Assembly (NCBI RefSeq): GCF_020781975.1
Contig: NZ_JAJGNI010000009.1
Coordinates: forward strand, 1 to 64,000
Direction of reading: 5' to 3'
DNA: 64,000 nt
Origin: Microbacterium schleiferi
GTDB taxonomy: Bacteria > Actinomycetota > Actinomycetes > Actinomycetales > Microbacteriaceae
This document shows, one piece after another, positions 11,785 through 37,201 of this stretch. Position numbers and translations under genes: made by a program. The notes beneath the pieces were generated by a model. It did no database searches. It was not told the DNA's origin and saw nothing but the letters and a program-made list of their open reading frames with translations. The first letter of the stretch is position 1. The number at the start of each line of letters is the position of its first letter.

Positions 11785-12219
11785 TCAGGCCGGGATGATC
11801 GTCACGTGTCGGCGGTCCTCGGGGGCGAGGGAAGCGACCAATCGGGAGTCAAACGTTGCCAGCTGCGCACCTTTTCGGGCGACGAGGTCCACGAGGTGAT
11901 AGTCGGTGACCTGTCGGTGACCGACGAGTGCCGCCACATCGATATGGGGGGCTGCCAGGCTGGAGTCATCCGCAAGGAATCGGTGGAGCGGCAGGGCTCG
12001 CAGCCCTCGCAGGACCTCGAGCGCAGTTGCGGCGGTGAACGTCGCGCCCACGACGACCGGATTGAGCACGAGCCTCACCAGCCCTGCTTCGGTATAGGGC
12101 GTCGTGGCCCACTGTGTGGTGTCGGAGAACCACGCGTGGGCAGCCTGGTAATGGACGTGATCCGGGGAGATGAGCGCGAGCAGGACGTTCACGTCGGGTA
12201 CGGCAAGCGGAATGGTCAT
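11785..12219 (-). CDS. vapC: VapC-type PIN-domain toxin (ribonuclease)
   Basis: A 144-residue PIN domain protein. The four expected acidic residues of the Mg2+-dependent active site are visible: Asp9 (VPDVNVLLAL), Glu44 (YTEAGLVRL), Asp106 (TDYHLVDL) and Asp124 (ATFDSRLV). VapC toxins cleave RNA, often specific tRNAs, when released from their antitoxin. The ATG at 12219 overlaps the stop of the upstream RHH antitoxin by 4 bases (ATGA), the classical antitoxin-first arrangement. The residue pattern fits the TIGR00028 group of mycobacterial-type PIN toxins. All active-site residues are intact, so it is probably functional. Confidence 0.92.
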   Translation of the reverse strand: MTIPLAVPDVNVLLALISPDHVHYQAAHAWFSDTTQWATTPYTEAGLVRLVLNPVVVGATFTAATALEVLRGLRALPLHRFLADDSSLAAPHIDVAALVGHRQVTDYHLVDLVARKGAQLATFDSRLVASLAPEDRRHVTIIPA

Positions 12220-12592: not shown

Positions 12593-14953
<2,361 letters not shown>

Positions 14954-14959
14954 GAGCAC

Positions 14960-14965
14960 ACGCTA
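14960..14965 (-). promoter_or_regulatory. -10 hexamer of the UvrA-like gene, overlapping the IS target site
   Basis: Minus strand TAGCGT, six bases (GTGCTC), then ATG 14953. The first bases of this hexamer belong to the duplicated target GCTAGC (14962-14967), so the insertion left the -10 intact but replaced everything upstream, including the -35, with IS sequence. Confidence 0.45.
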
Positions 14966-14967
14966 GC
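14962..14967. repeat. 6-bp target-site duplication, left copy
   Basis: GCTAGC directly abutting the left end of the IS481 element; identical to 16068-16073 and matching the NCTAGN target known for IS481. Confidence 0.85.
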
Positions 14968-16067
14968 TGTGATGTCCAGGGACGTTGTTTCGGCGACACG
15001 GCCCTGAGCTGCTGAGAGGCGAAGACCTCCGGTTGTGAAGTGGAGCTGTTCAAGGAACCGCTTCACGAACCAGGAGGCCTTCGTGTCCCACGCTAACGCT
15101 GCTCTGACTCCTCGTGCTCGTCTTCGGTTGGCGCGCCTGATCGTCGATGACGGCTGGCCGCCGTCTGTAGCGGCGAAGATGTTCATGGTCTCGAGCGTCA
15201 CGGCCCGGAAGTGGGCGGCCCGGTTCCGCGCCGAGGGCGTGTCAGGGATGCAGGACCGGTCCAGTCGTCCGCGCTCGATGCCGTCGAAGACGCCGCTGCT
15301 CGTCGTCAAGCAGATCGTCAAAGCGCGCTGGCGGCGCCGGCTCGGGCCCGTCCAGATCGCCGGCGAGCTCGACCTGCCGCCGTCGACCGTTCACGCGGTG
15401 CTGGTGCGCTGCCGTATCAACCGGCTGTCGCGGATCGACCGGGTTACCGGGGAACCGATCCGACGCTACGAGCACGACCATCCCGGCTCCCTGATCCACG
15501 TCGACGTCACCAAGTTCGGCAACATCCCCGACGGCGGCGGACACCGCTTCCTCGGCCGCGCGCAGGGCACCCGGAACCGGCACGCGATGGCCCGCGTGAA
15601 CCGCAACACTCGTTACCAGCCTCGGCTCGGGATCGGTTACCTCCACACCGTCGTCGACGACCACTCCCGCGTCGCCTACGTCGAGATGCACGCCGACGAA
15701 CGATCCGACACCGCGATCGGTGTCCTGCGCCGCGCGGTCGCTTGGTTCGCTGAACGGGGCGTCGCCGTCGAGCGGGTGTTGTCCGATAACGGCCCCGCCT
15801 ACCGCTCCCACGCCTGGCGAGAGGCCTGCTCCGAGCTCCGCATCCGCCACAAACGCACCCGCCCTTACCGACCCCAGACAAACGGGAAGATCGAGCGCTT
15901 CCACCGCACCCTCGGCGACGGCTGGGCCTACGCGAAGCTCTACACGTCAGAGACCGAGCGGCGCGACGCCCTACCGGGCTGGATCCACTTCTACAATCAC
16001 CACAGGCGCCACTCCGCGATCGGCGGGACGCCGATCAGCAGGCTCAACAACCTGTCTGGACATCACA
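14968..16067 (+). mobile_element. IS481-family insertion sequence, complete, 1100 bp
   Basis: The left end TGTGATGTCCAG is matched in inverted orientation by the right end CTGGACATCACA; with a gap, similarity continues into GTTGTT/AACAAC, giving imperfect inverted repeats of about 25 bp. Both ends abut a GCTAGC direct repeat, so the boundaries are exact and the length is 1100 bp. The transposase is intact. The element sits in the promoter region of the UvrA-like gene, transcribed away from it. The perfect duplication and intact frame suggest a fairly recent insertion. Confidence 0.93.
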
Positions 16068-16072
16068 GCTAG
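15083..16072 (+). CDS. IS481-family DDE transposase
   Basis: A 329-residue transposase. Residues 1-60 form a helix-turn-helix region (LTPRARLRLARLIVDDGWPP, then VSSVTARKWAARFRAEG). A second HTH lies at about 70-115, and an rve-type integrase core carries the catalytic triad Asp141 (LIHVDVTKFG), Asp235 (VLSDNGPAY) and Glu271 (KIERFHRTL). The GTG start at 15083 has AGGAGG 5 bases upstream; an earlier in-frame ATG has no such site. The last sense codons read through the right inverted repeat, and the TAG stop (16070-16072) lies outside the element, in the target-site duplication. Thus the CTAG of the target supplies the stop codon. Confidence 0.95.
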   Translation: MSHANAALTPRARLRLARLIVDDGWPPSVAAKMFMVSSVTARKWAARFRAEGVSGMQDRSSRPRSMPSKTPLLVVKQIVKARWRRRLGPVQIAGELDLPPSTVHAVLVRCRINRLSRIDRVTGEPIRRYEHDHPGSLIHVDVTKFGNIPDGGGHRFLGRAQGTRNRHAMARVNRNTRYQPRLGIGYLHTVVDDHSRVAYVEMHADERSDTAIGVLRRAVAWFAERGVAVERVLSDNGPAYRSHAWREACSELRIRHKRTRPYRPQTNGKIERFHRTLGDGWAYAKLYTSETERRDALPGWIHFYNHHRRHSAIGGTPISRLNNLSGHHS

Positions 16073-16073
16073 C
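16068..16073. repeat. 6-bp target-site duplication, right copy
   Basis: GCTAGC abutting the right end of the IS481 element; includes the transposase stop codon TAG. Confidence 0.85.
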
Positions 16074-16131
16074 GGGATGCCGCGACATCCGTCTTCTCGA
16101 TTCGTGACGGCATCCGTGCGAGTCATCGGCT

Positions 16132-16217
16132 GTGGCCAACTCAGCAAGAACGGCGGGCGAGCCGGATGCCAGGCGTGGCGTCGCGCGAGCTCGGCCCGGA
16201 AATGAGGAGTTAGCGAC
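16132..16217. repeat. 86-bp repeat with terminal inverted repeats, copy 2
   Basis: Begins GTGGCCAACTC, has CCGGATGC in the middle and ends TGAGGAGTTAGCGAC. Exactly the length of copy 1 at 9915-10000. Confidence 0.78.
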
Positions 16218-16306
16218 ACCGGCGTGCCGGGCCGAACCGGTCAGGCGAGAGAGCCGGGCGGCATCCGACCTTGGGATTCGTGTCGGCTCGGCTCCGTCGT
16301 CGGCCG

Positions 16307-16393
16307 TCGCCAACTCAGTGAGAACGGCGGCAGGAACCGGATGCTGCGCACAGCCGCACAGCAATCCGCCCCGCGGGTGAGGAGTTAGCCACC
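16307..16393. repeat. 87-bp repeat with terminal inverted repeats, copy 3
   Basis: Begins GTCGCCAACTC, has CCGGATGC in the middle and ends TGAGGAGTTAGCCAC. Same orientation as copy 2, from which it is separated by 89 bases. Confidence 0.78.
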
Positions 16394-16415
16394 TCCTCGC
16401 GCCGAGCCGGCGATG

Positions 16416-17123
16416 TCAGAGGCGCGCGATCTCGACCCGAGGGCGCACGGCGATGTCGGTGAGGTGGACGTCGGGGGAGGCGTCCACGAGGAACCGGACC
16501 GTCGCCGCGACCGACGACGGCTTGATGTAACGCTCGGGCTCGTACGGGGTGCCCATTTCGGCCGACTGCGTGCGCAGCATCCCGGTGTCGGTCTGGCCCG
16601 GGGCGAGCGTCACGACCCGCACGCGATGGCGCTGTTCGTCGATGCGCAGCACGTCGGCAAAGCCCCGAAGTGCGTGTTTGGATGCCGTATAGATCGCGTG
16701 ACCGGGAACGGGGCGAGTCCCGGCGCCCGAGCCGATGAACACCACGGTTCCCCGGCTCTCGCGCAGCAACGGCAGCACCTGACGCGTGAGCTCTGCCGGG
16801 GCGAACACGTTGATGGCGAACTGGCGTTCCCAGTCCTCGGGCGTCGCCGATTCCGCCGTGTGGACCGCCGCGATCGCAGCCCCGTGCACCAGGACGTCCA
16901 GGCGCGTGAGCTCTGCCGTGCGGGCAGCGAGGGCTTCGGCATCCGTGATGTCGAGGACCCAGGGCGTGGCACCGGTCTGCCGAGCCAGTTCGCTCAGCGC
17001 ATCGGCGCTGCGTCCGACCGCGATCACGTCGTGGGTGCGCGAGAGCTCCCGCACGATCGCTCCGCCCATGCCGCCGGTGGCTCCCGTCACGAGGGCTTGG
17101 GGGCGAACACCGGATGCGGTCAT
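16416..17123 (-). CDS. short-chain dehydrogenase/reductase
   Basis: A 235-residue SDR oxidoreductase. The cofactor loop TGATGGMG lies at residues 14-21 and an acidic DITDAEA stretch near 58. The catalytic Ser132 (FIGSGAG), Tyr145 and Lys149 (HAIYTASKHAL) are all present, so it should be active with NAD(P)H. The length is slightly below the usual 250. The start ATG 17123 overlaps by 4 bases the stop of the large FAD/NAD(P)-binding gene upstream, so the pair is co-translated. The substrate is unknown; partnership with the flavoprotein suggests a shared oxidoreductive pathway, possibly linked to the divergent ABC importer. Confidence 0.92.
   Translation of the reverse strand: MTASGVRPQALVTGATGGMGGAIVRELSRTHDVIAVGRSADALSELARQTGATPWVLDITDAEALAARTAELTRLDVLVHGAAIAAVHTAESATPEDWERQFAINVFAPAELTRQVLPLLRESRGTVVFIGSGAGTRPVPGHAIYTASKHALRGFADVLRIDEQRHRVRVVTLAPGQTDTGMLRTQSAEMGTPYEPERYIKPSSVAATVRFLVDASPDVHLTDIAVRPRVEIARL

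Positions 17124-34298: not shown

Positions 34299-37201
<2,903 letters not shown>

Follow-up and report, generated by a model that had tools for sequence, protein, structure and literature searches.

How can a complete insertion sequence lie inside the -10 hexamer of a gene and leave that hexamer in place, and does its family seek out such sites? The question is raised by an IS481-family element immediately upstream of a UvrA-like gene in a stretch of 64,000 nucleotides (the window, meaning the whole stretch analysed) from a Microbacterium schleiferi genome of 3.02 Mb in 34 contigs. The original prediction held that the element had entered a leaderless promoter and preserved its -10, and that members of the family may preferentially strike promoters of this kind. 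We consider it likely that the event was a chance, tolerated IS481 hit in a leaderless -10, which the target duplication retained, and not a case of targeting.

The element comprises the following features:

14968..16067, plus strand: IS481-family insertion sequence, 1100 bp, recognised by termini, direct repeats and transposase
14968..14989, plus strand: left inverted repeat, matching the right repeat at 19 of 22 bases
16046..16067, minus strand: right inverted repeat, pairing with the left repeat
15083..16072, plus strand: transposase, 329 aa, with a GTG start preceded by AGGAGG (15072-15077)
14962..14967, no strand: target duplication GCTAGC on the UvrA-like side, the hexamer as read and its nature as a duplication from other copies
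16068..16073, no strand: far copy of the target duplication GCTAGC, within which the transposase ends on its TAG stop codon (16070-16072)

The element is complete, ending in TGTGATGTCCAG at 14968 and CTGGACATCACA at 16067, with TGTGATGTCCAG as the start of the inverted repeat at both ends. Inverted repeats of the IS481 family begin with TGT, as they do here, and the family rule of a D-D-E triad in which 35 residues separate the second D from the E also holds for the transposase, where D235 and E271 form this pair. The protein reaches 330 bits against the NCBIfam model transpos_IS481 (NF033577; cutoff 224, E 1.1e-98), with Pfam rve and LZ_Tnp_IS481 both above their cutoffs, and the family assignment made from the letters alone is thus confirmed. 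The same genome holds one other relative spanning the full 1100 bases (78% identical, flanked by TCTAGA on both sides), a 71% relative over bases 72-1095 and several partial matches; in addition, the flanks of four contig ends allow these to be joined into two further copies, lying between CCTAGG/CCTAGG and CTTAGG/CTTAGG, where the pairing is inferred from matching contig ends. Because other copies carry different flanking hexamers, GCTAGC is a target duplication and not a part of the inverted repeat, as had been proposed. Among two-ended loci the 6-bp flanks were identical in 43 of 53 and differed in 10, and the 153 related ends adjoin NCTAGN (134), NYTARN (16 more) or another word (3), which agrees with the 6-bp NCTAGN duplication of the family.

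On its left side the element adjoins a gene on the minus strand, with the following features around it:

12593..14953, minus strand: UvrA-like gene, 786 aa, Ecm16-like (PDB 7sh1 over residues 7-786, E 0)
14951..14953, minus strand: ATG start codon and predicted leaderless transcription start, six bases from the -10
14960..14965, minus strand: rebuilt -10 hexamer TAGCGT, TAGC from the duplication and GT native; TAACGT in three relatives
16074..16115, minus strand: native block from in front of the UvrA-like gene, 1.1 kb from the -10 since the insertion
16416..17123, minus strand: SDR oxidoreductase, the upstream neighbour; by eye, a like gene lies upstream in the relative G246 too

The gene encodes a putative class II UvrA (Ecm16/DrrC/UvrA2-like). 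The similarity to a solved member of that class is full-length, the best solved relative being Ecm16 (7sh1, 1246 bits), and the score against TIGR00630 is 679 bits, under the cutoff of 730 for UvrA proper. A further mark of the class is the lack of the UvrB-binding domain; residue 164 of the window protein aligns to residue 286 of 2r6f, about 120 residues being absent before it. Ecm16 of Streptomyces lasalocidi, the closest solved relative, is a UvrA-resembling echinomycin-resistance protein (PMC10192343). Elsewhere in the window, a second UvrA homologue at 35130-37163 is probably the housekeeping uvrA, and 11785-12219 encodes a PIN-domain protein of the VapC toxin subfamily (TIGR00028). The gap between the SDR gene and the element (16133-16400) contains a repeat with GAGGAGTTAGC and GCCAACTCAG in two copies; each of the two words occurs twice in the 164 kb sampled of this genome and is absent from 300 kb of others.

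In leaderless promoters of actinobacteria, TANNNT stands six or seven bases ahead of an RTG start. On the minus strand of the window, six bases separate TAGCGT (14965-14960) from the ATG at 14953, as had been noted; the hexamer is composed of TAGC from the duplicate plus GT, and not of the duplicated bases plus CGT. The same geometry does precede many genes: within the 64-kb window N6-RTG follows 14 of 97 TANNNT words, against 1-4 at spacings 3-5 and 7-10, and in nine genomes of the genus (463 kb, window included) it follows 91 of 669, where the other spacings examined (2-5 and 7-13) give 11-37. Across the genus, TANNNT-N6-RTG is a genuine signal. Among 67 leaderless promoters with a coding frame, TAGCGT occurs five times and TAACGT four times. 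For the UvrA-like gene itself, TANNNT-N5..8-RTG was found in five of 46 distinct N-termini of relatives, window included, many of the others having SD-like leaders by eye (58 loci were given and 46 kept, loci without the N-terminal motif or with a repeated upstream region being dropped). The predicted leaderless start of the gene is a trait of this clade.

The UvrA-like gene was searched as DNA in 366 genus genomes, 28 of which were not scored. The three closest species scored (G246, G329 and G247; 86% nucleotide identity in the gene) have no element at the site. They carry a single GCTAAC or GATAAC and then TAACGT-N6-ATG, aligned base for base with the window: the empty site reads GGCATCCGGCTAACGTGTGCTCATG in G246 and GGCATCCGGATAACGTGTGCTCATG in G329 and G247, and the window has GGCATCCC-GCTAGC at the junction ahead of the element and GCTAGC-GTGTGCTCATG at the one following it. 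The joined site of close relatives had been expected to be a single GCTAGC; it is single, with a different spelling. The hexamer before the insertion was very probably TAGCGT, one base from the TAACGT of the relatives. Since these relatives have one uninterrupted site of the same geometry, all three agree with an insertion that split a leaderless -10 and a duplication that preserved it. In G247, two IS481-type ends TGTGATGCCCAG lie 2.8 kb apart (L183, G247:C1:1456667-1459458), about 440 bp upstream of its UvrA-like gene.

The region that precedes the -10 in the relatives is conserved as well. Over about 43 bp, 42 of 43 columns are invariant in the three species, and beyond this block G246 differs from G329 and G247. 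In each of four genomes a 21-base core of the block is matched perfectly once, and every time before the UvrA-like gene. The insertion has moved the block 1.1 kb away from the -10. A regulon for the block was sought and rejected: with up to three mismatches, the core gave seven matches in four of five genomes, of which four were the block itself and the rest lay at unrelated places. The octamer GGATGCCG/CGGCATCC, of which one near-palindromic pair lies inside the block, occurs 380 times in 464 kb (window plus L210-L229), against 37 expected from base composition.

We propose that a complete IS481-family element transposed into the CTAG within the -10 hexamer of the leaderless UvrA-like gene and that repair duplicated the 6-bp target. 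Because the element duplicates 6 bp, the gene side kept -10, spacer and start as a whole (TAGCGT-N6-ATG), and the conserved region formerly in front of the -10 was pushed upstream. The rebuilt -10 probably continues to drive the gene, with transcription beginning at 14953 and the left end of the element upstream. With this end in place and without any regulation that the displaced block may have exerted, the level of transcription has probably changed.

What the left end contributes is harder to judge. The native -35 had been thought to be separated from the -10 and to be replaced by the end of the element; the displacement holds for the conserved block, and a -35 consensus was detectable neither in the native context nor at the IS end. 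No usable -35 consensus emerged from the 67 leaderless promoters, in which the EM motif was weak and TTGAC occurred once (spacings 12-25). Against TTGACA, the IS end matches at most two of six bases at spacings 15-19 and three of six at spacing 20; TGGACA, a five-of-six match, lies merely seven bases from the -10. By the EM motif its best hexamer is ACAACG at spacing 17, scoring 4.57 against 5.25 for the native block, and these values say little, both falling in the upper part of the range for promoters as for random DNA. A role for the left end as a promoter part is a possibility suggested by its position. The lack of a good -35 at the IS end, together with the displacement of a conserved block, would suit an insertion that silenced the gene, with the rebuilt -10 too weak without its native block and the gene a dormant relic. 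We hold this to be unlikely, as the 786-aa reading frame is intact, the geometry is complete and the 67 leaderless promoters of the genus reveal no -35 requirement.

Alternatively, an outward promoter inside the element might drive the gene and make the rebuilt -10 irrelevant. There is precedent in Bordetella pertussis, where katA uses an outward promoter near the left repeat of IS481 and bteA a start inside IS481a (PMC3053399). The left 433 bases of the window element contain one TANNNT directed toward the gene, TAGCGT at 15095-15090, 122 bases inside; as it faces the gene, another, element-borne start is conceivable. It is the sole candidate there, however, no more than two of six bases agree with TTGACA at spacings 15-20, and its transcript would cross a hairpin region before reaching the gene. 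We regard an outward promoter as improbable here and retain transcription from the rebuilt -10 as the preferred reading. The hairpin is the following feature:

15019..15084, plus strand: hairpin in which the transposase ribosome-binding site is paired (-38.9 kcal/mol, z -6.06)

The ribosome-binding site is paired in all 32 distinct copies with recognisable ends and a transposase motif (copies without the motif were dropped), and three of the 16 pairs of the consensus are changed on both sides. The structure could block translation of the transposase from read-through transcripts. At another locus (L250, G600), the hairpin loop of an IS481 copy contains a CTAG into which the end of a different IS481 has inserted; the window copy has no CTAG in its hairpin loop.

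To what extent the family chooses leaderless promoters can be counted. Of 366 genus genomes, 51 had matches to an end pattern with a degenerate target; a longer end pattern matched in 20 out of 398 genomes sampled from the family. We read the flanks of 80 regions selected among the matches listed, together with those of other loci fetched, and obtained 184 distinct ends from 125 insertions, 59 of them two-ended. Duplicates sharing their first 40 bases were dropped before counting, and only ends and insertions with CTAG throughout were counted, namely 160 ends and 105 insertions (24 of 184 ends and 20 of 125 insertions without CTAG were dropped); 54 of the 105 insertions are single-ended, so that a single event may in some cases have been counted as two halves. 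In place of a gene caller, a simple codon model, trained on 215 long ORFs, decided which frames were coding. The background consisted of 92 CTAG sites in 463 kb from nine IS-bearing genus genomes, window included. CTAG itself is scarce: a Markov estimate predicts 307 where 97 were observed.

Three insertions were found in leaderless -10s, and two of them have empty-site relatives. Besides the window insertion, L143 (G344) has a CCTAGG duplication with TAGGCT-N6-ATG before a 118-aa protein of the Glyoxalase superfamily; its flanks matched in four of 57 other genomes, of which G028 alone reached near the start and shows the empty site as TAGGCT-N7-ATG. The third, L013 (G089), has GCTAGC with TAGCGT-N6-GTG ahead of a frame whose product, counted from this start, is 305 aa long and has no Pfam match; its empty site had no match in the other 57 genomes searched. 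CTAG is indeed common in leaderless -10s, as had been stated: 17 of the 67 promoters contain it, and 17 of the 92 background CTAG sites lie in a leaderless -10 with a coding frame, which makes it not improbable that a CTAG-targeting element should strike such a promoter. These figures and the three insertions are what would speak for a family that preferentially strikes leaderless promoters because its target word is part of the -10. The standing insertions contradict it or, at best, give it no support. Leaderless -10s account for 3 of 105 CTAG insertions against 17 of 92 sites (p 0.0003) and, for two-ended insertions only, for 3 of 51 where about 9 were expected (p 0.045 against 17 of 92); compared with CTAG in the insertions' own flanks, there was no significant difference (3/158 versus 6/177, p 0.51). 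Enrichment is absent in either comparison, and we consider a preference for leaderless promoters very improbable. IS481 insertions at leaderless -10s are probably avoided or lost; the family would be, if anything, under-represented there, perhaps through selection against insertions in the -10.

The shortage is centred on one flank base. We denote as f2 the second base beyond the duplication, which is the last base of TAGNNT. T stands at f2 in 7 of 158 ends against 51 of 187 background site-orientations (p 5e-9) and against 33 of 177 when the CTAG orientations are taken from the flanks of the insertions themselves (p 7e-5), and among 80 position and base tests (20 flank positions by four bases) it alone passes p<0.000625. 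In ends from other genera, partly also among the 184, T at f2 or N6-RTG was found in 0 of 38, which is again contrary to a preference for promoters. T at f2 is likewise depleted where no start codon lies behind (3/160 versus 24/184), so that an intrinsic target preference of the transposase, unrelated to promoters, could explain the depletion instead of selection, and the G+C content of 85% at f2 points the same way. Against such a preference, A at f2 is barely depleted (0.10 versus 0.13) and T shows no significant depletion at f1, f3 or f4. We see it as a possibility to be taken seriously, if one that we would sooner doubt than adopt.

Stop codons show the opposite trend to the -10s. The target TAG is the in-frame stop of a coding frame at 36 of 158 ends, against 17 of 187 background orientations (p 0.0005). 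Fewer frames run toward the site and are cut (10 ends versus 24 background, p 0.047), and fewer open frames run away from it (25 versus 55, p 0.003), with the remaining classes alike (87 versus 91; n=158 and 187 throughout). The window event is real yet ordinary; what is new, in a modest way, is that a depletion is seen at a single flank base and a relative excess at stop codons, for both of which selection, occupancy or transposase preference may be the cause. A more speculative reading, which we hold to be less likely than not, is that IS481 of this bacterial family uses a rare word marking the seams of genes, TAG stops and TAGNNT -10s, and that the duplication rebuilds the signal on the gene side in both. 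Standing insertions would be biased to stops and away from -10s, either through exclusion from active promoters by RNA polymerase or by flank reading of the transposase, or through purging of such hits; in this view the -10 hit in the window would be a rare survivor, spared by the rebuilding of its -10.

The locus provides a clean example, checked against element-free relatives, of a short target duplication that lets a transposon enter a promoter core without erasing it. It also leads to a countable test of where IS481 insertions survive, and the depletion of T at f2 turns an anecdote into a hypothesis. In open-licence PMC papers, we found no account linking the target site duplication of an insertion sequence with a leaderless promoter, nor of a hairpin at the ribosome-binding site of an IS481-family transposase; IS481 and leaderless were mentioned together solely in a Shigella genome paper, as far as its available text goes.

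One of the closest known systems comes from Leifsonia xyli, a member of the Microbacteriaceae. Its ISLxc2 resembles the window element in length (1105 bp), transposase (332 aa), TGTG...CAGGGACGTTGGT ends and NCTAGN target, and its transposase stop codon likewise lies in the target; the available part of that report differs in describing no insertion into a -10 (PMC2516522). ISRe46/TnRErm46 of Rhodococcus equi shares the IS481 transposase and the CTAG target, and the TAG of its duplication provides the stop codons of the transposase and of some target genes. It differs in being a 6.9-kb resistance transposon for which the accessible text notes stop-codon sites and leaves promoters unmentioned (PMC6794481). 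In Bordetella, IS481 changes the transcription of neighbouring genes via its own promoters (PMC3053399, PMC11774165). At katA and bteA, the B. pertussis element is like that of the window in family, in its 6-bp duplication of NCTAGN (or CCTAAC) and in its upstream insertion (PMC3053399, PMC11774165); whereas it supplies a promoter of its own (PMC3053399), the window element sits in a predicted leaderless -10 that has been preserved.
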